A stretch of 64,000 nt of DNA from Sphingosinicella sp. BN140058 (GTDB lineage: Bacteria > Pseudomonadota > Alphaproteobacteria > Sphingomonadales > Sphingomonadaceae): contig NZ_CP035501.1 of assembly GCF_004135585.1 (NCBI RefSeq), forward strand, positions 4,287,501 through 4,351,500, in the 5' to 3' direction. The notes under the pieces are model-generated. The model saw only the letters and a list, made by a program, of their open reading frames with translations, was not told where the DNA came from and did not search any database. Shown here in pieces: positions 33,462 to 41,606 of this stretch. The position numbers were made by a program, and so were the translations under genes. Every line of letters starts with the position of its first letter. Position 1 is the stretch's first letter.

Positions 33462-33478
33462 CCAACTTAGTTGACATT
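33454..33478. promoter_or_regulatory. Inverted repeat overlapping the -35 box
   Basis: AATGTCAAC and GTTGACATT form perfect 9-bp arms around CAACTTA. The left arm contains the -35 element of the micropeptide promoter, so a dimeric repressor or activator bound here would control it. The right arm contains a second TTGACA facing the glycosyltransferase gene. Confidence 0.55.
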
Positions 33479-33611
33479 CGTGTTTGTACGTAAGGCGCAG
33501 CCCATCGTCGCGGCGGAGAGACACCGCTCCAGACCCGCCGCATTCTGCGTGACATTGTCGCTGCAGGGCGGGCTAAAGAAAGCGCGTCAGCGCTTTGGCT
33601 TAGGGAAGATG

Positions 33612-34811
33612 ATGCGGCTTCTGTTCGTGCACGACAATCGCTTCGAGCACGGCGCAGACGGCCATATCTACACGTCCGGAACGTTTCCGAGCGCCCTGTG
33701 GGAACGCTACCTGCGGCATTTCGACGAGGTGTGCGTGCTGGCGCGAAACGGGCGCAATAAAGGTGCGGCCGGGGCGGAAATCCGCGCGGACCGGGCGCGC
33801 GTCTTCTTCCAATTCGCTCCAAACATCGGCTCGCTATGGGGGGCGGCGTTCAACTGGAGGACGTCGCGCGCGCGCGTCCGGGCCGCCGTGGCACAGGCGA
33901 ATGCCGTTGTTGCCCGGTTGCCGAGCGAGCTCGGCTTTCTTGCCGCAGCGGAGGCGGAGCGGCAGGGCAAGCCCTTGGCGGTCGAGCTTGCCGGCTGTGC
34001 CTGGGACGCAGCGATCAACCACGGCTCGCCGATCCTCAAGCTGTATGCGCCGATCTTCTTCCACCGGACGTGCCGCGCCGCCGCCCGCGCACCGCTGGTC
34101 GTCTACGTCACCTCCGAATTCCTGCAGAACCGATACCCGTCTTCACATCATCAGATCAGTTGTTCCGACGTTGAGATTGTGCCCTTGTCTGCGGAAGACC
34201 GCGGTCGCCGTGGCCGGCGTCTGGAAAGGCTGGCGCGAGGCGGATTGCCGCAGCTTGGCACGATCGCCAGCCTGTCCCCGTTCTACAAGGGCCTCCACCT
34301 CGCGATCGAAGCGATTGCCCAGCTGCGGGCCGAGGGCCTGCACTATCCATACGCCATCCTCGGGCCCGGCAATCCGGAGCCGTGGCGCGCGCTCGCCCGC
34401 TCGGCAGGGGTCGAGGATCTGGTTCGCTTCGACGGGACTCGCGAGCCGGGTGCGCCGGTCAGGGGTTGGCTCGACGACATCGATCTTCACCTCCAGCCGA
34501 GCCTCGCCGAAGGACTGCCGCGTGCAACGATCGAAGCCATGAGCCGCGGGGTCGCTTGCATCGGCTCCGACGTCGGCGGGATTCCCGAGCTGCTGCCAAG
34601 GGCGCAATTGCACCCCAGCGGCGACTCCCGCAGTCTCGCGGAGACGATCCGGCGGCTTGCGACTGCTCCCGATCTCGTGGCGAGCGCAGCCTGGTCGGGC
34701 GTCGAACAGGCACGGCTTTTCTGGCCCGAAATGCTGGAGCGGTGCCACGACGAGGCTTATGGGCGTCTGCGCGCAATGGCGGAAGCGCGCTCCGGCGGGT
34801 GCGGCAGGTAA
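33612..34811 (+). CDS. Glycosyltransferase family 4 protein
   Basis: About 399 aa. GT-B fold with an N-terminal acceptor domain (LLFVHDNRFEHGADGHIYTS) and a C-terminal nucleotide-sugar domain (GTIASLSPFYKGLHLAIEAI, YAILGPG, DDIDLHLQPSLAEGLPRATI, IEAMSRGVACIGSDVGGIPE), which contains the GT4 ExxxxG-type motif. It transfers a sugar in the cytoplasm, probably during surface-glycan assembly. The ATG at 33612 is preferred because AGGGA sits 5 nt before it; the ATG 3 nt upstream is equivalent. Its 3' end overlaps the convergent glycosyltransferase gene by 55 bp. Confidence 0.82.
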   Translation: MRLLFVHDNRFEHGADGHIYTSGTFPSALWERYLRHFDEVCVLARNGRNKGAAGAEIRADRARVFFQFAPNIGSLWGAAFNWRTSRARVRAAVAQANAVVARLPSELGFLAAAEAERQGKPLAVELAGCAWDAAINHGSPILKLYAPIFFHRTCRAAARAPLVVYVTSEFLQNRYPSSHHQISCSDVEIVPLSAEDRGRRGRRLERLARGGLPQLGTIASLSPFYKGLHLAIEAIAQLRAEGLHYPYAILGPGNPEPWRALARSAGVEDLVRFDGTREPGAPVRGWLDDIDLHLQPSLAEGLPRATIEAMSRGVACIGSDVGGIPELLPRAQLHPSGDSRSLAETIRRLATAPDLVASAAWSGVEQARLFWPEMLERCHDEAYGRLRAMAEARSGGCGR

Positions 34812-35932
34812 AGTGCGGCAAGCTCCGCGATGCAGCGATCTAGCCCGAACCGTCCGCGTTCAAGTTCGTCAAGCCACGCTTCTGGCGCCGCCTCGGGAGG
34901 CGGCATACCCACCAGCCGCGCCATCGCCGCGCCCCAGATCGGCGCGGGCGCTCCGGGATCGAGCGTCTCACTCGCGCCCGGCACGACGAGCGCTTCCGCC
35001 GGTGTCGTGTCCGAGACGAGCAGCCGCGTTCCTGCCGCCTGCGCCTCGATGCAGACGATCCCCAGACCCTCGCTGAAGGATGGGAGAACGAACAGGTCGA
35101 ACATCGCCATGAAGGCGGGAACGTCGTCGCTGGTGCCGGCGAAAAGCACGGAACTTCTTATTCCGAGCGTGTCGGCCAAGCTTTCGAGCGCCTCCTGAAG
35201 CGGCCCGGCACCGACCAGCACAAGATGCGCGTCCGGGCATTGCCCGCGGCAGATCGCGAACGCCCGAAGCAGCAAATCGTGATTTTTGACCGGGGAAAAG
35301 CGAGCAACGTTGCCGACAATGCGGGCATTTGGCGGCAGCGCCAACCGCCGGCGCAGCGCCGTACCGCGCTCTGCCGCGCCCCGAAACCGGCCGAAATCGA
35401 ACCCATAGAAAAGGAGCGAGGCGCGGTCGCGGGAGCGCCAATGCGCGCCGGCGATCTCCGCCAGTGCGTCTTCGCTGATCCCGACCAGCCGCGTGGCGAC
35501 GGCTTTGGCCAGAGGAATCGCCGCCAGACGCAGGAGCCGCCGGCTCAGAGGATAATCCTCTCCGCGACTTCGGGCGGAGTGGGAGTGCGCGATTCGGATC
35601 GGCACACCGGCGCGTTTCGCCGTCGTCAGCAGCAAGGCGGTAAACGGAGGATCGTCATGGGCGTGGACGGCAAGGAAAGGGCCGTCTTCGCGCAGGAAGC
35701 GGCTGAACTTGCCGAACCAGGCGACACGCCCGTTACGGAGCGGGATCTTGTGGATCGGAATACCAAGCCGCCGGGCTTCGCCCTCATAGGCGCCGGTCCG
35801 CGTTTCGGTGAGCAGAAGTTCATGGCGGACGTCGAAGCGATGCTGATGACGAACGATGTGCATCAGCCAGGTCTCGATGCCACCCCAGTGGAGGGAGCCG
35901 AGGACATGAAGGACCCGGGGGCGTCCGTCCAT
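34757..35932 (-). CDS. Glycosyltransferase family 4 protein
   Basis: 391 aa. GT-B fold: N-terminal HVLGSLHWGGIETWLMHIV (glycine-rich loop), central GNVARFSPVKNHDLLLRAFA and HLVLVGAGPLQEALE, then FVLPSFSEGLGIVCIEAQAA with the EGLG motif and conserved Glu. It is similar to EpsF/EpsD-type exopolysaccharide glycosyltransferases. Its ATG overlaps the stop of the nucleotidyltransferase gene upstream (ATGA), so the two are translationally coupled. It is convergent with and overlaps the other GT4 gene. Confidence 0.85.
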   Translation of the reverse strand: MDGRPRVLHVLGSLHWGGIETWLMHIVRHQHRFDVRHELLLTETRTGAYEGEARRLGIPIHKIPLRNGRVAWFGKFSRFLREDGPFLAVHAHDDPPFTALLLTTAKRAGVPIRIAHSHSARSRGEDYPLSRRLLRLAAIPLAKAVATRLVGISEDALAEIAGAHWRSRDRASLLFYGFDFGRFRGAAERGTALRRRLALPPNARIVGNVARFSPVKNHDLLLRAFAICRGQCPDAHLVLVGAGPLQEALESLADTLGIRSSVLFAGTSDDVPAFMAMFDLFVLPSFSEGLGIVCIEAQAAGTRLLVSDTTPAEALVVPGASETLDPGAPAPIWGAAMARLVGMPPPEAAPEAWLDELERGRFGLDRCIAELAALYLPHPPERASAIARRRP

Positions 35933-37041
35933 CAGTGAAGGGCCGTTTTCGAATCGAGTGCCTTGCGGGTCGTGCGCGCCATCCGCCAGTAGAAGCCTGG
36001 GTTGAGCAACTGGAGCAGCCGTGCCGGCTGGCGCCTTGCCCTGATCAGCCGGCGCCGCACCTCGGTAACGGCAAGGCCGACATGGTGCAGGATTGGGTAG
36101 GCCGCACCCAGAGCGTAGAAGCGAAGAATGCGCTTCTGCCGGGCTGGGGATATGTCGATCTCGGTCAGTGCCGTTCCGAACAGGGCGCGGAACAGCGTTT
36201 CGACATGGATCAGGCTGCTCCGCTCACCGGCACGCTCCAGCAGCTGAGCGACGGCGGACCACGAGACCGGCGCATCCGAGGCCTTGAGCGCGGCGAGATC
36301 GAGCAGCGCCTTGATCGGCACCAGCGCCATGTGCCGGCTGCGATCCCATGCGACGGCGTGGAGGATCGTGAGTGCCGCATGGTGCGACCAATCGGGCAGA
36401 AGCACATGGCCCCCTCTGAACTCGGCGAGGTGCGCAGCCTCGAACAGCATCTCCGCCGGAAAGTTTTCCCGTTCGTATATGCGTGTAAGCTGGTGATGGA
36501 CTTCGAGCAGCAACGCGAACTCATCGCTATATTGCTGCAGCGCGTGACCGGCTTCGGCCCCGGGAGGCTTGGCAACGATCGCGAAGCCGGCCGCTTCGGC
36601 GGCGGCGACGCAGGACGCAAGATGCTCGGGCGGCACGATGAGATCGATGTCCGCCATCAGCCGAAAGCCCGGATCGGGATAGATTCCGCCCACGCGCGCG
36701 GCCGAGCCTTTCAGCAACAAGGGTGTCACCCCGGCGCGGTTCATCGCGTGAACCAGCCGCTCCAATCCCTGCATCTGACGCTCTGCCTTGGTGCGCCCAT
36801 AGAGCAAGGCGAGATTGGAATAGGCTCTTACCTCTTCGCTCGGCCGGCTGCGCTCCAGGATCCAGGCCAATGACGTGCTGGTGCCGTAGCGCTGGGTCAG
36901 CACCCTGAGCGGCGCGACATCTGCGGAGCAAAGCGGCTCCGTGCGGACGCTCGCCCGGCTCTCCAGCCAAGGTTGGAAGAGCGCGCCGTATGCGAGGAAC
37001 GCCTGCCAGGTGTCGCCGCCCGGGACATCCACGTGCTTCAA
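35932..37041 (-). CDS. NTP_transf_5-type nucleotidyltransferase
   Basis: 369 aa from a TTG at 37041, chosen because GGAGGAG lies 6-7 nt upstream and the formyltransferase stop is 16 nt before it. The fold signature is PLLLKGSAARVGGIYPDPGF and then RLMADIDLIVPPEHL, where DxD provides the metal-binding aspartates. It belongs to the uncharacterised nucleotidyltransferase group (PF14907) that accompanies kinase-containing (paeninodin-type) lasso clusters and some exopolysaccharide loci. Its stop overlaps the start of the glycosyltransferase gene. The likely role is nucleotide transfer to a peptide or sugar phosphate (inference). Confidence 0.75.
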   Translation of the reverse strand: MKHVDVPGGDTWQAFLAYGALFQPWLESRASVRTEPLCSADVAPLRVLTQRYGTSTSLAWILERSRPSEEVRAYSNLALLYGRTKAERQMQGLERLVHAMNRAGVTPLLLKGSAARVGGIYPDPGFRLMADIDLIVPPEHLASCVAAAEAAGFAIVAKPPGAEAGHALQQYSDEFALLLEVHHQLTRIYERENFPAEMLFEAAHLAEFRGGHVLLPDWSHHAALTILHAVAWDRSRHMALVPIKALLDLAALKASDAPVSWSAVAQLLERAGERSSLIHVETLFRALFGTALTEIDISPARQKRILRFYALGAAYPILHHVGLAVTEVRRRLIRARRQPARLLQLLNPGFYWRMARTTRKALDSKTALH

Positions 37042-37057
37042 GGTACGCTCCTCCAGG

Positions 37058-37909
37058 TCATGGCAACAGATGGATGAAGCCGCCGTTGCAGTGAAGGCGC
37101 CATCCGGTCGAGGTCCGATCGACCTTGCCCGGGACAAGCGGCTCGGCGGAACGTACATAGTCGCCGACCGACGCGTAGGTTACCGATCTGCCATCCTCGT
37201 CGGTCAGCGGCTGCTTGAAGCGGGAGCAGAAGCCGCGAAGGAAGTGCCAGCTCTGCTCCACGGGCCAATTCTCGACCGGGGCGCGAAACGAGGCGGCATC
37301 GAAGCGGGTACCACGGGTTGCTGCGGCCTCATCCTGGGCTCGCTCCTCGGCGCCCGCCTCGACGAAGGCAATTGCCCGCAACAGGGTCGGACCGGCTCGG
37401 AGCGCGAGCTCGCGTTCGAGCAGCTCGACCGGGAAGCCGCGCGGTATGGACAGAGCATCCTGCACGATGATCGGGCCTGCATCGAAGCGGGGAGTGGCGC
37501 GATGGACGGTCAGCCCTGTCTCCAGATCACCGTCATGATAAATCCGGAAGAGGGTCTGCGGCCCCCGCTGGCGGGGCAGCAGCGAGGGGTGCAGGTTGAT
37601 CGCGCCGAACCGCGCGATTGCTGCGGTCTCTTCCTCAAGACAATGCTTGAACGTGGCGATGCACAGGATGTCGGGCCGGAACGCGGCGATGAAGTCGTTC
37701 GTTGCTCCGGGCTCATACCAGGCCGTTGGTATCGCGCTGCCGCGTGCAAAGCGTTGCGGTCCGGGCCATTGACGCAGGAGGTCGCGCTTGATCTTCGATC
37801 GCAGCGGTATCTGCGTCATCACCAGCAGGATCTGGTGCCCGGCGGCCGAAAGAGCTTCCAGGCAGGAAAGGGTGATCGGGGATTCGGTGCCGAACACTAT
37901 GATGCGCAT
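37058..37909 (-). CDS. 10-formyl-THF-dependent formyltransferase
   Basis: 283 aa. The N-terminal Formyl_trans_N fold starts MRIIVFGTESPITLSCLEAL. The catalytic triad is visible: Asn105 and His107 in AINLHPSLLPRQRG, and Asp143 in RFDAGPII. It is shorter than Met-tRNA formyltransferase and lacks a normal tRNA-binding domain, so it resembles sugar-amine formyltransferases. It starts the - strand operon formyltransferase-nucleotidyltransferase-glycosyltransferase, divergent from the peptide-modification genes. The substrate could be an amino sugar or a peptide amine (undecided). Confidence 0.8.
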   Translation of the reverse strand: MRIIVFGTESPITLSCLEALSAAGHQILLVMTQIPLRSKIKRDLLRQWPGPQRFARGSAIPTAWYEPGATNDFIAAFRPDILCIATFKHCLEEETAAIARFGAINLHPSLLPRQRGPQTLFRIYHDGDLETGLTVHRATPRFDAGPIIVQDALSIPRGFPVELLERELALRAGPTLLRAIAFVEAGAEERAQDEAAATRGTRFDAASFRAPVENWPVEQSWHFLRGFCSRFKQPLTDEDGRSVTYASVGDYVRSAEPLVPGKVDRTSTGWRLHCNGGFIHLLP

Positions 37910-38006
37910 TGCGGTGCCAACCCCGTTTCAACCGCTCCGGCCCTTCGATGTCATCCATCTGCACAGCCGTTGCCGAGCAGGCAAGGGGTGACTAAGCAGC
38001 GGTGCG
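37910..38006. promoter_or_regulatory. Short divergent promoter region of the modification locus
   Basis: Only 97 bp separate the start of the formyltransferase operon (- strand) from the kinase gene (+ strand), so the two half-operons probably share control. I could not define individual boxes. Confidence 0.4.
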
Positions 38007-38939
38007 ATGGCGACTTCATCCTTGCCGGCCGCGACCGCGACGCACCTTTACCGCGCATACGGGATGACCATCGCGGTCGAGCGCCCGGTGCCGAGACTCA
38101 CGCGATTGCCAAGCCGCGGCGGTGACGAGCCGATCGTGATCGAGTTCGGCACGGTTCCGCAGGCGCTGCCCAACGCCGAAACGTACGACGACTATTTCCA
38201 GGCGACCACTTCAGAATACCTGTTTCGCCAGCCCGAGAAATGGGGCGTGCTGGTGCGCGACGGGCGGTGGGCGCGATTCGAAGCGATGACGGAGCTCAGC
38301 GACGAGCTGTTCTGGTACCTGGCGGTGACCAATGCGGTGGGCGTTGCCGGCTATCAGCGCGGCCTGTTCCCCGTCCACGGCTCGGGCGTGATGTTCCCGT
38401 CCGGGATGGTCGCCTTCGTCGGTCCGTCCGGTGCCGGCAAGACAAGCTTGACCGCCGGCATGGTGCTGCGCGGCCATCCGCTCTTTGCCGACGATCTCTG
38501 CCTGATACGACCGGAGGGCGGCACCTATGTCACCGGCAAGGGTGCGCCCGAGCTGCGCTTGCTGCGCGACGCCGCCGATGCGCTCGGCTGGGATCGCGAG
38601 CGGTCGATCGGTCACCAGCCGACGCGAGACAAATTCGCGTTCGTGCAGGATGACAGCGGGATCGACGAAGCGCCTGTCCGCGCGGTCGTCGAGCTGGCGT
38701 TCGAGGACGGGCCGCCGCGCTTGGAGCGGCTGGGCGGCGTCGCTCCGTTCGCCGTGCTGGTCGCGGCGATCCGCCTTCGCATGGGTCTTCATCTGTTTCC
38801 GCGCGCGCTACGGCCGGCCGCCTTCGATCTCGTGTCGCGGATGGCACGCGAGATCCCGGTCTACCGTTTCACCCGTCCGCGTGATTATGGAGCCTTCGCG
38901 GCTGGTGCGGATCTTCTTTCCGCCGAATTTGGACATTGA
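38007..38939 (+). CDS. HPr-kinase-like peptide kinase
   Basis: 310 aa. The C-terminal domain has the HprK-type P-loop GPSGAGKTS (139-147), FPVHGSGVMF upstream of it (His124) and LFADDLCLI (Asp162, Asp163). Homologues in tailed lasso-peptide clusters (ThcoK/SyanK/PadeK type) phosphorylate the C-terminal residue of the precursor peptide rather than HPr. The following PqqD-like and B2-like genes support such a role here. The stop codon is 2 nt before the ATG of the next gene. A substrate among the two downstream 44-aa peptides is an inference. Confidence 0.8.
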   Translation: MATSSLPAATATHLYRAYGMTIAVERPVPRLTRLPSRGGDEPIVIEFGTVPQALPNAETYDDYFQATTSEYLFRQPEKWGVLVRDGRWARFEAMTELSDELFWYLAVTNAVGVAGYQRGLFPVHGSGVMFPSGMVAFVGPSGAGKTSLTAGMVLRGHPLFADDLCLIRPEGGTYVTGKGAPELRLLRDAADALGWDRERSIGHQPTRDKFAFVQDDSGIDEAPVRAVVELAFEDGPPRLERLGGVAPFAVLVAAIRLRMGLHLFPRALRPAAFDLVSRMAREIPVYRFTRPRDYGAFAAGADLLSAEFGH

Positions 38940-38941
38940 AC

Positions 38942-39214
38942 ATGCACGCCACCTTCGTCCGCGCACCCGACGTTCCCACCGCCGAATTCGGGGACGAACT
39001 TGCCGTGATGGACCTGAAAAGCGGTGCGTACATCGCTTTCAATCGAACGGCTGCCGATATCTGGAAGCTGCTTGAGTCCCCGCGGAGCCTCGAGCAACTC
39101 TGCGAGACTCTGGAGCGACAGTATCGGATCGACCCGGAGCGATGCCGCGAAGATGTCGAGGGACTGCTCCGCGAGCTTGAGCAGATGGGCGTGATCCACC
39201 GCCGTGACGGGTGA
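38942..39214 (+). CDS. PqqD-like leader-peptide-binding protein (lasso B1 type)
   Basis: 90 aa, winged-helix RiPP recognition element: AEFGDELAVMDLKSGAYIAF, NRTAADIWKLLESPRSLEQL, then EDVEGLLRELEQMGVIH. PqqD/B1 proteins bind the leader of a precursor peptide and present it to modification enzymes. The ATG at 38942 lies 2 nt after the kinase stop; a TTG at 38936 is possible. It overlaps the start of the B2-like gene by 11 bp, so kinase, B1 and B2 form one coupled operon. Confidence 0.85.
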   Translation: MHATFVRAPDVPTAEFGDELAVMDLKSGAYIAFNRTAADIWKLLESPRSLEQLCETLERQYRIDPERCREDVEGLLRELEQMGVIHRRDG

Positions 39215-39647
39215 AAGGGAGCGTTCACGAGGCGATCGTCTGCTCGCCATCGAGGCGACCTTCTTCCTCCTGCTCAGCCGCTATGGACTACGCCTCTTCG
39301 GCTTTCGTCGGCTGATCTTTACCCTGGGGGCGCCAGGCCCGTGCGCCCCCGATCCACGCGTCGTCGCTCGGATCGCGGCGGCGGTGGATCGCGGCGGTGC
39401 GCGCCTCGGCCTCACCTGCCTTCGAAGAGCCCTCGCCGCGGCATGGATGCTGCGCCTCCGAGGCTTGAAGCCGACGCTCCATTACGGCGTTTCCCGGACA
39501 AGCGGAGCCGTGCAGGCGCATGCCTGGCTCGAGGTCCAGGGCCTTCCCGTCGTCGGGCACGATCAAGCGAGCAATTTCGCATTGCTCGCGAGCTTTCCAG
39601 GCAGTTCAGGTCCACCACTTCTCCGCAATCCGGCTGATCGTGGCTGA
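39204..39647 (+). CDS. Lasso B2-type transglutaminase-like leader protease
   Basis: 147 aa from a GTG at 39204 within the end of the PqqD-like gene. The transglutaminase-like (Transglut_core3) fold has a plausible triad: Cys72 in GLTCLRRALAAAWMLRLRG, His106 in VQAHAWLEVQGLPV, and Asp120 in GHDQASNF. In lasso biosynthesis B2 cuts the precursor after the leader, with B1 holding the leader. Here no ATP-dependent cyclase (C protein, asparagine-synthetase-like) is present. It is followed after 81 bp by two small peptide genes. Confidence 0.8.
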   Translation: MTGERERSRGDRLLAIEATFFLLLSRYGLRLFGFRRLIFTLGAPGPCAPDPRVVARIAAAVDRGGARLGLTCLRRALAAAWMLRLRGLKPTLHYGVSRTSGAVQAHAWLEVQGLPVVGHDQASNFALLASFPGSSGPPLLRNPADRG

Positions 39648-39728
39648 AAAGAGGCCGCCCGCATTGCCGGAACTTGACCGGTCCGAAGACGTCATGTCAG
39701 ATGCAGCGGGTCAAATGGAGTGCATCTC

Positions 39729-39863
39729 ATGGTAGAATCCAGCGTCGGTCCCGATCATGTCGAATCGACTTTCGAAGCCGAAGCAGCGCCGAGCACGGCG
39801 CGTGAATGGGTGAAGCCACAGGTGACCAGGCTGGAGCTCGAAACGGCGCAAGCAACCGCTTGA
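39729..39863 (+). CDS. Putative RiPP precursor peptide 1, 44 aa
   Basis: ATG at 39729 with GGAG 8 nt upstream, TGA at 39861-39863. The first half is acidic and variable. The C-terminal 22 residues run TAREWVKPQVTRLELETAQ and end ATA. WxxPxVxxLEL matches the leader motif YxxPxLxxLDV of paeninodin-type lasso precursors, the sequence bound by the PqqD-like B1 protein. In lasso precursors a core of 15-25 residues follows this motif; here the protein stops at once. It could be a leader-only peptide, or be modified in its N-terminal half or at its C terminus. It has a close paralogue 46 nt downstream. Confidence 0.7.
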   Translation: MVESSVGPDHVESTFEAEAAPSTAREWVKPQVTRLELETAQATA

Positions 39864-39909
39864 GGCTGACGTTTCCCATCGGAAATTCTCGGGACAGGAG
39901 CAATTCGAA

Positions 39910-40044
39910 ATGAGCGATACGACCAAGCTTTCGGAAGTGACGTCCGAGGAGACGATCGAGCAATCGCAGGGCACCGCCCGTGAGTGGATCACGCCGGAGG
40001 TAACCAAGCTGGACCTCGAGACAGCGCAGGTCACAGCGCCTTAA
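39910..40044 (+). CDS. Putative RiPP precursor peptide 2, 44 aa
   Basis: ATG at 39910 with CAGGAG 9 nt upstream, TAA at 40042-40044. It begins MSDTTKLSEVTSEETIEQSQ and shares the C-terminal TAREWITPEVTKLDLETAQ with precursor 1, ending VTAP. It has the same length as its neighbour and conservative changes only (V/I, R/K, E/D), which suggests selection on the protein. No cysteines are present in either peptide. It is followed by a hairpin at 40069-40088 that probably ends the operon. Confidence 0.7.
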   Translation: MSDTTKLSEVTSEETIEQSQGTAREWITPEVTKLDLETAQVTAP

Positions 40045-40068
40045 GGATCGGTCTCCGATCCACGATGT

Positions 40069-40088
40069 GGCGGAGCCTCGGCTCCGCC
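40069..40088 (+). terminator. Hairpin after the precursor peptide genes
   Basis: GGCGGAGC pairs with GCTCCGCC around CTCG. The stem sequence is close to that of the terminator at 33182-33203. There is no long T-run, so it is a probable rather than certain terminator. Confidence 0.55.
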
Positions 40089-40135
40089 GTCTCGCATGGC
40101 TCCTTTCCGCCCGATCGGTCGTCAGCGACCGGCCG

Positions 40136-41098
40136 TCACCTGCCCCGGGCGGAGCGTGAGCGAAGCTCGCGGGGACCTGCCCCATAGGTGCGCCGGATCA
40201 ACCCTCGCAGCGTGGAGGGTTCGGCATAGCCGACCTGGCGCGCAACCTCCTCCACCGGCAGGCGGGTGGTCTCGATCAGTTCGACCGCCCTTTCGAGCCG
40301 GACGCGCTGAAGAAACCTGACGGGTGAGAGACCCGTGCTGCGCTGGACCCGGCGGGCAAAGGTTCGCGGAGAAACGCCGACGGCCGCGGCAATCTCGTTG
40401 ACGCTGGTGCCGCCCTCGAGTGCGGCCCGCGCCCAGGCGGCCGCACGCGCGACCTTCTCGTCGCCGGCGGCAAGAAGGCCGATGGCCATGTAGGGCGCCT
40501 GCGATCGGCGCTCGTCCAGGACCATGATGCGCGCGCATCGATCGGCGATTGCGCTGCCTGCATGACGCGCCACGATCAGCACCATCAGGTCCATCTGTGC
40601 CATCGCCGCGCCTGCGGTGGTGAAGCGACGGTCGGCCAGCACCAGTTCGCGCGTGTCGAGGCGTACCCGCGGAAACAGCTCGCGGCAGAGCGGCGCCAGC
40701 CACCAGGCGGTGGTGGCACGGCGTTCGTCGAGCAACCCGGTGCTCGCCAGCAGCAGGGTGCCCGTACAGGAACTGGCGATATCCGCCCCCGCATCCGCGC
40801 CCCGAATGATTTCGCGCCGCGCATCCTCCACGTCGGGGTCCTGCAGACGCTTCGCAAGTGAGGGCGCCTTCGAAAGGCCTTGTGCCGGCACCAGAACCAA
40901 TTCTGGCGGCAGTGAGGAATCGGCCGCCTGCTCGACGAACGGCGCGAAGTCGGCAGCGCCGGAACCGAACAATCGAAGCTCGAAGGGGGCAGGACGGCCA
41001 GCCTGCGTGCACAGCCGATTGGCGTAGGTGAGGACATCGAGCGTGATCGTCACGCTGGACGGCATCGCCCCGGCAAGCGTGATTATCGTCGTGCGCAT
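40136..41098 (-). CDS. GlxA-type AraC-family regulator
   Basis: 320 aa. The N-terminal DJ-1/PfpI-like domain has VLVPAQGL and SSCTGTLLLASTGLLDERRA, with the usual conserved Cys. The C-terminal AraC HTH has VNEIAAAVGVSPRTFARRVQ and VEEVARQVGYAEPSTLRGLI. This GlxA-type architecture binds small effectors and activates nearby genes. The start at 41098 (MRTTIITLAG) is typical; an ATG at 41122 would overlap the cupin gene. It is downstream of the cupin gene on the same strand with a 7-nt gap, so it may be in an operon with it. Confidence 0.82.
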   Translation of the reverse strand: MRTTIITLAGAMPSSVTITLDVLTYANRLCTQAGRPAPFELRLFGSGAADFAPFVEQAADSSLPPELVLVPAQGLSKAPSLAKRLQDPDVEDARREIIRGADAGADIASSCTGTLLLASTGLLDERRATTAWWLAPLCRELFPRVRLDTRELVLADRRFTTAGAAMAQMDLMVLIVARHAGSAIADRCARIMVLDERRSQAPYMAIGLLAAGDEKVARAAAWARAALEGGTSVNEIAAAVGVSPRTFARRVQRSTGLSPVRFLQRVRLERAVELIETTRLPVEEVARQVGYAEPSTLRGLIRRTYGAGPRELRSRSARGR

Positions 41099-41105
41099 CG
41101 GCGGC

Positions 41106-41606
41106 TCAATAGAAATCGCCATTCTTGTGACGGTACGTCCACCCCTGTTCCCCTCTGAATGCTTCGAGATCATCGTCGGGATAGACGGCGGAATCGCCGG
41201 GCAGGCGGTCGCCCGCTTCCAGATAGCAGGCGTCCGCCTGTGAGCGGTTGAGCAGATGGTGGGCGGTGCCGCCCGCCGGAAAGCCGACGCACATGCCGGC
41301 ATGCAGCGTCTGCTCGCCGTGATCGTGAACCAGCACCAGTTCCCCGGCAAGAACATAGACGAACTCGTCCTGAACGCTGTGGCGGTGACGTACCGAGGAT
41401 GCGCTACCCGGTGCGAGCGTGACGAGGTTGATCCCGAAATTGGTGAGGCCGAAAGCGTCGCCGAGCCTGCGCTTGACCCGGCCTGCGACCCTGCTCGCGA
41501 AGGGCTGAGGATAGGTGGATCCGCCTGTTGCCGGCACGTCCACGGCACGAACGCCGGGTCCGGGTTGGGAACCGCTAGCGATCGGGACGGGCAGGGACGT
41601 CGTCAT
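41106..41606 (-). CDS. Cupin domain protein
   Basis: 166 aa. Cupin motif 1 is SVRHRHSVQDEFVYVLAGE (His, His, Glu metal ligands) and motif 2 is HAGMCVGFPAGGTAHHLLNR. The last strand is followed by a C-terminal YPDDDLEAFRGEQGWTYRHK seen in transcription-factor-associated cupins. It may be an enzyme or a small-molecule sensor. It is divergent from a second cupin gene, with 185 bp between the starts. Confidence 0.8.
   Translation of the reverse strand: MTTSLPVPIASGSQPGPGVRAVDVPATGGSTYPQPFASRVAGRVKRRLGDAFGLTNFGINLVTLAPGSASSVRHRHSVQDEFVYVLAGELVLVHDHGEQTLHAGMCVGFPAGGTAHHLLNRSQADACYLEAGDRLPGDSAVYPDDDLEAFRGEQGWTYRHKNGDFY

Follow-up and report, generated by a model that had tools for sequence, protein, structure and literature searches.

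HprK-type kinases of RiPP pathways act on the precursor peptide, with help from B1 in the Bsf case, and the position they modify differs from system to system. In paeninodin, the target is the C-terminal Ser, and in pseudomycoidin, also a lasso peptide, the C-terminal Ser bears phosphate and hexose, with PsmN credited with adding the hexose to the phospho-Ser (both reviewed in PMC9266682). In the Bsf lasso cluster of Bradymonas, BsfK phosphorylates core residue 3 and is reported to accept the S3T variant of BsfA (PMC10368454). LppK likewise phosphorylates core residue 3 but is reported not to have accepted S3T; it belongs to the linear polyphosphorylated peptides (LPPs) of Bacillota, which are described as relying on a kinase, an RRE, and an NTP transferase, with no cyclase and with phosphate on core residue 3 (PMC13381572).

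Here, we compare these systems with a locus in Sphingosinicella sp. BN140058, contained in a stretch of 64,000 nucleotides (the window), and with a similar locus, L188, in Sphingomonas. Both encode pairs of unusually short precursor peptides. They resemble paeninodin and other kinase-type lasso loci in having HprK, B1, B2, an NTP_transf_5 (NT5) enzyme, and a homologous WxxP leader, but unlike paeninodin-type loci, they lack a cyclase, a ring acid at core positions 7 to 9, and a C-terminal Ser. With the LPPs, they share a discrete RRE, an HprK-like kinase, and an NTP transferase without a cyclase. The leader is also similar, [Y/W]xxPxV ending in ET and followed by AQ (FET/AQSNWK in LppA, where the slash is the cut, and LETAQxT here), as is the number of precursors (one to three per LPP cluster as described, two here). 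Both have a hydroxyl at position 3, which is Ser in LPPs and, with B2 cutting after TA, would be Thr here. The MsbA-like exporter of LPP clusters has a possible counterpart in L188, but none among the larger ORFs of the window locus. The differences are equally clear. The peptidase is a B2 cysteine peptidase, not the SpI-like LppS, and no SpI-like signal peptidase was found among the seven larger ORFs of the window locus or nine scanned L188 ORFs. The leaders deviate from the LPP motif YxxPxVLxHQxIxFETxxS by having W, no LxHQ stretch, and a motif-to-ET spacing that is three residues shorter, and 4 to 9 residues follow the cut versus a 45-residue core. Neither locus is from Bacillota, to which LPPs are said to be restricted (PMC13381572). 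The Bsf cluster is similar in that B2 removes the leader, a nucleotidyltransferase is present, and residue 3 is the kinase site, as proposed here, but its cyclase, full core, and Ile(-2) leader are not shared (PMC10368454). Pseudomycoidin has the kinase and nucleotidyltransferase in common with our loci, but it is a lasso peptide modified at its C-terminus.

Judged from its genes, the short-peptide system may be likened to an LPP pathway built from lasso B2 machinery. A sequence-only reading of the window had proposed that the peptides would be new for a B1/B2/kinase locus. For kinase loci, the proposal is not entirely new, as cyclase-free linear phosphopeptides were published in 2026. The short pair with lasso-type leaders was correctly described and is also present in a second species. 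No report of cyclase-free phosphopeptides in this group was found among the papers listed by an exact-phrase search of open-licence papers, which is weak evidence of absence.

The short precursor pair and its island

The two peptides, pepA (39729..39863, + strand) and pepB (39910..40044, + strand), are both 44 residues long, and their ORFs have GGAG 8 and 9 nt upstream of ATG, respectively. In pepA, the leader motif is W27-P30-V32 with T39-A40, leaving a stub of QATA (or ATA if the cut follows TAQ); in pepB, it is W26-P29-V31 with T38-A39, leaving QVTAP (or VTAP). The C-terminal ends read TAREWVKPQVTRLELETAQ-ATA-stop and TAREWITPEVTKLDLETAQ-VTAP-stop, and they have in common EW(V/I)xP(Q/E)VT(R/K)L(E/D)LETAQ, with the stop 3 to 4 residues further. 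Over the last 27 residues, 17 (63%) are identical (two-sequence BLASTP, E 8e-12), while the N-terminal halves have diverged. A degenerate DNA pattern of the leader block has two matches in the 6.07-Mb genome, both at pepA/pepB, and none when reversed.

Upstream on the same strand are three closely spaced genes that, together with pepA and pepB, have the appearance of an operon. The HprK-like kinase (38007..38939, +) has the P-loop GPSGAGKT and intact H124, K145, D162, and D163, which probably correspond to the published His-Lys-Asp-Asp set, and its best family matches lie below the curated cut-offs of those families. B1 (38936..39214, +) is a discrete PqqD-like RRE, i.e., a leader-binding protein (PF05402, 68.5 bits), with sequence matches among structures to TbiB1 (5v1u), 9x90, TfuB1 (6jx3), and 9x8z. 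B2 (39204..39647, +) is a lasso-type cysteine leader peptidase (NF033537, 73.4 bits against a cut-off of 33; PF13471, 66.9 bits) in which the catalytic Cys72 and His106, both in conserved columns, are intact. Structures predicted from two-row alignments were set aside; pLDDT was 32.7 for HprK and 61.8 for B2, and no PDB fold matched the B2 model at E <= 0.001. The sequence-only reading was accurate in describing tandem paralogs with ribosome-binding sites beside B1, B2, and kinase genes. Two GC-rich hairpins after pepB (40045..40091, +) possibly mark the end of the operon; the segment 40044-40105 folds at -31.1 kcal/mol, a value without a shuffled control. The hairpins are not in the output of the terminator scan, which requires a T run, and a promoter scan of 37000-41200 gave a single weak site on the opposite strand.

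On the divergent strand are a formyltransferase (Formyl_trans_N, 37058..37909, -; PF00551, 72.7 bits), the NTP_transf_5 nucleotidyltransferase (35932..37158, -; PF14907, 92.3 bits), whose listed ORF overlaps the formyltransferase so that its true start is probably further in, and a glycosyltransferase (34757..35932, -; PF00534, 99.6 bits). A second glycosyltransferase converges with the first (listed ORF 33471..34811, +; PF13692, 75.1 bits), with its true start, judged by eye, probably downstream of 33600. In the congeneric genome G396, the flanks on either side are collinear with the window, but 56 bp stand in place of 33479..40144. The nine genes therefore make up a 6.7-kb accessory island, either gained in the window genome or lost in G396.

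To place the short peptides among lasso precursors, 120 DNA stretches (20 around B2 matches in the genus and 100 around HprK places in the order, part of those listed) were annotated with profiles grown from the window proteins and the genome's other cyclase. Small ORFs were sought by a WxxP-type motif, and 45 precursors were picked by hand, 42 from cyclase-containing loci and 3 from the L188 genome. The motif aromatic in these is W in 40, Y in 3, and F in 2, and in Bacillota, paeninodin-like leaders are likewise described as having an almost invariant W (Popov 2026, PMC13381572). The W that had been singled out as a replacement for Y is thus the usual residue and does not count as a novelty. 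The assignment of the leaders to the lasso type is borne out by a profile-profile match over the leader (P 7e-7, probability 92%), made with a profile of nine kinase-type precursors hand-chosen as most similar to the short peptides. ETAQ aligns without gaps to the AAEF, SAEx, or EAEx that comes just before the lasso core. The paeninodin family NF033524 matched none of the four short peptides from the two loci, a weak test since five of six lasso precursors were also unmatched and the sixth scored 17 bits (cut-off 27).

The two kinds of precursor part ways after the leader, with 27 to 41 residues (median 31) following the motif aromatic in the 45 lasso precursors versus 17 to 21 in the four short peptides. 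The lasso precursors end in Ser (41 of 45), Thr (2), or Val (2), and the short peptides end in A, P, G, and I, none in Ser. A full core hidden past the stop by frameshift or read-through was rejected, as translations of three frames, viewed by eye, show no lasso-like continuation after any of the four stops. The earlier description of leaders "without a core" therefore holds for a normal core, but the stubs are better read as cores of 4 to 8 residues. In the taxonomic family of the window, lasso loci that include a kinase and encode WxxP leaders followed by cores ending in Ser are frequent (L092-L183). Paeninodins are said to be restricted to Bacillota (PMC13381572), but the discrepancy may come down to definition, since SyanK, from a kinase lasso system of Sphingobium, is already known.

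Recurrence, rarity, and selection

The leader-block pattern was scanned over 84,980 species genomes, one per species, and one other locus matched: L188, on contig NZ_JAGHZV010000022.1 of a Sphingomonas MAG. It has two matches in tandem, ending ...REWVTPQVSKLDLETAQ-QTGIPGG and ...PEWITPEVIRLELETAQ-QTI. Its proteins are 69% (HprK), 62% (B1), 61% (B2), and 49% (NTP_transf_5) identical to those of the window. The 8 kb of L188 also encode a sulfotransferase, a glycosyltransferase, and an MsbA-like ABC exporter (best family MsbA, 228.6 bits against a cut-off of 602). A methyltransferase was also recognized in the second species, by eye only. Related lasso precursors do run on into a normal core, as a truncation would predict, but the closely related L188 pair does not. 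The tandem pair recurs with its enzymes in a second species, and it is no one-off truncation. First-first and second-second orthology between the species is ambiguous, with pepB residues 27 and 30 pairing one way and 33 and 35 the other.

Directly upstream of the L188 peptides, ending 92 bp before them, is a gene for an M28/glutamine-cyclotransferase-like protein (L206:131-1174) with a hydrophobic N-terminus, as judged by eye. Its resemblance to glutamine cyclotransferases is seen in PDB entry 6qro (E 3.6e-16), but its best match is 7d1b (E 6.4e-19), named as a leucine aminopeptidase. At E <= 1e-50, it occurs in 1 of 295 congeneric genomes, namely that of L188 itself (G418), among the top candidates per genome (7 in the listed rows), and it is absent from the window island. 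Its presence would fit a product with an N-terminal Gln. Besides the short-peptide locus, the same genome has four HprK loci, and each of these lies no more than 1.5 kb from a PF00733 match. In three of the four, a full-length precursor was called, with S as its last residue, and in the remaining one none was called.

FastTree analysis groups the window and L188 proteins as a clade both for HprK (116 rows; support 1.0, on a long branch) and for B1 (77 rows; 0.996). Among the top candidates per genome, the best non-self HprK in 396 genomes of the order scored 98.8 bits against 696.6 for self, and no HprK besides self reached E <= 1e-30 in 397 genomes of the family, a sample that overlaps the first. 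Likewise among top candidates, the 295 genomes of the L188 genus gave 461.5 bits for G418 itself and 112.6 bits for two others, one of them next to a cyclase and a precursor that ends in Ser, the other a lone kinase. A two-peptide model found only the window genome among the 396 of the order, the leader-block pattern had no match on viral contigs, and plasmid records gave seven HprK matches of at most 33% identity. With two species found and far weaker HprK relatives elsewhere, the system is therefore rare. The expectation that the pair would be conserved beside B1/B2 in relatives has a mixed outcome, as the pair does recur, but in one further species.

Purifying selection acts on the leader block that the peptides share. 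When the four peptides were compared pairwise over the 18 codons of EW...QxT, the six pairs gave dN of 0.14-0.18 and dS of 0.84-2.05, i.e., dN/dS of ~0.08-0.21, from few codons and with dS partly saturated; dN/dS is ~0.2 for HprK, B1, and B2 and ~0.44 for NTP_transf_5. The stubs vary while the leader block, the most conserved part, stays fixed, as with cores; QxT is kept in all four. Of 24 kinase positions with conservation of 80% or more among the other kinases, five differ in both the window and L188, which would fit, without proving, a changed acceptor.

Proposed pathway and alternatives

Profiles and tblastn of 25 cyclases revealed no cyclase in the window, nor in the part of the L188 contig that they covered (52.0 of 57.4 kb), and the whole-genome search gave no PF00733 match on that contig. 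As controls, the profiles detected B1, B2, and HprK in the window and L188, and two cyclase loci drew 38 tblastn hits. A profile search of the island's larger ORFs showed neither a cyclase nor a transporter/exporter. The window genome does have a separate benenodin-type lasso cluster ~340 kb away (L056, at G000:C1:3.986 Mb), with a precursor of its own (L001:952-1107; NF033522, 35.7 bits, cut-off 33), B2, and a cyclase-type protein. Borrowing of this cyclase was rejected, as ring closure would not be possible with the stubs: QATA, QVTAP, QQTGIPGG, and QQTI contain no Asp or Glu, and so the ring acid at core positions 7 to 9 is absent. Lasso formation is precluded by the lack of a cyclase, of an acidic residue at position 7 to 9, and of a long tail.

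The genes, their homology and conservation, the absence of a cyclase gene, and the selection acting on them underlie the reading that we favor and to which we give about an even chance: a branch of the kinase-type lasso pathway that has no cyclase and yields very short linear products, for which we infer phosphorylation, cut, decoration, and product. Recurrence in two species points to very short linear, probably phosphorylated peptides. B1 would bind the WxxPxV leader, and the HprK-like kinase would then phosphorylate the one hydroxyl that the stubs conserve. This belongs to Thr3 of the core, the only hydroxyl in all four stubs if B2 cuts after T-A. Thr as an acceptor is not guaranteed, since LppK did not accept S3T, and a cut after ET as in LPPs would put the Thr at position 4. 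The phosphate may be decorated by the nucleotidyltransferase and then by glycosyl- and formyltransferases in the window, and by glycosyl-, sulfo-, and (by eye only) methyltransferases in the second species; in the LPP reconstitution as described, deletion of the NTP transferase lppN changed nothing (PMC13381572). B2 would cut after Thr(-2)-Ala(-1) to give QATA and QVTAP in the window and QQTGIPGG and QQTI in the second species. Lasso leaders are described as usually having Thr at -2, a recognition element for processing. The case covers two species, one of them a MAG (L188).

A more specific form of this proposal is tentative, and we consider it rather doubtful. It holds that the loci represent an LPP-like RiPP class outside Bacillota that has kept the lasso B2 and makes pairs of peptides of four to eight residues, Q-x-Thr-..., in which Thr3 bears phosphate and sugar and the new N-terminus is capped (pyroglutamate in one species and perhaps formyl in the other). 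If true, these would be the shortest products known to us for this leader type. The cyclase-free branch, if real, suggests that a lasso-type leader, RRE, B2, and HprK kinase can stay together without ring formation, and it would offer a minimal substrate, one stub hydroxyl, for HprK-like RiPP kinases and for NTP_transf_5 enzymes, whose role is unsettled.

It is possible, though unlikely, that the peptides are free-standing leaders that occupy B1 or switch on the kinase or B2 in trans as a decoy, chaperone, or regulator, with nothing cut. PbaB1, the B1 of a paeninodin-type system, appears to fold stably only on leader binding (PMC13381572), and a very short stub behind the most conserved part of the peptide would suit such a role. 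However, no other precursor was recognized in the island, QxT is kept in 4/4 stubs, and where a precursor was called at the other HprK loci in the L188 genome (three of four), it has a leader of its own. Alternatively, the peptide may be a carrier on which Thr or the C-terminus is modified, so that the product is either the attached group or the entire 44-mer, and B2 acts late or on another substrate. Several sugar-type enzymes do adjoin very short stubs in both loci, but B2 is intact and of the leader peptidase family, and no C-terminus-extending enzyme was recognized among the ORFs scanned; we regard a carrier as quite improbable. Decay of a lasso operon that lost its cyclase and core, leaving the peptides as remnants, is given a similarly low chance. 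The HprK-B1-B2-precursor-cyclase order is found on one strand in 8 of the 42 cyclase-containing loci, and the window order is this operon minus the cyclase; the rare, patchy occurrence would also suit decay. Against this, a second species whose proteins are 60-70% identical is in the same state, peptides and enzymes have dN/dS far below 1, both copies are intact, and no cyclase remnant was found. The divergence of the N-terminal halves between pepA and pepB would suit modification N-terminal to the motif, with follower-type recognition, but these halves are also mutually unlike among lasso precursors with normal cores, and we regard this reading as very improbable.

Four other loci have B1, B2, and HprK with no called cyclase (L040, L042, L048, and L106), and no short WxxP precursor was recognized in them, within the limits of a 14-kb contig (L040), an 8.2-kb contig (L042), and a contig start (L106). 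A WITP string in one frame of L048 (14246-14374) looked like chance. L042 has HprK, a sulfotransferase, B1, B2, and a sugar-transfer ATP-grasp protein with no called cyclase on its contig, and it is possible that this is a second kind of cyclase-free locus. Downstream of its B2, on the other strand, L042:3071-3226 is a possible YxPP precursor of ordinary length.
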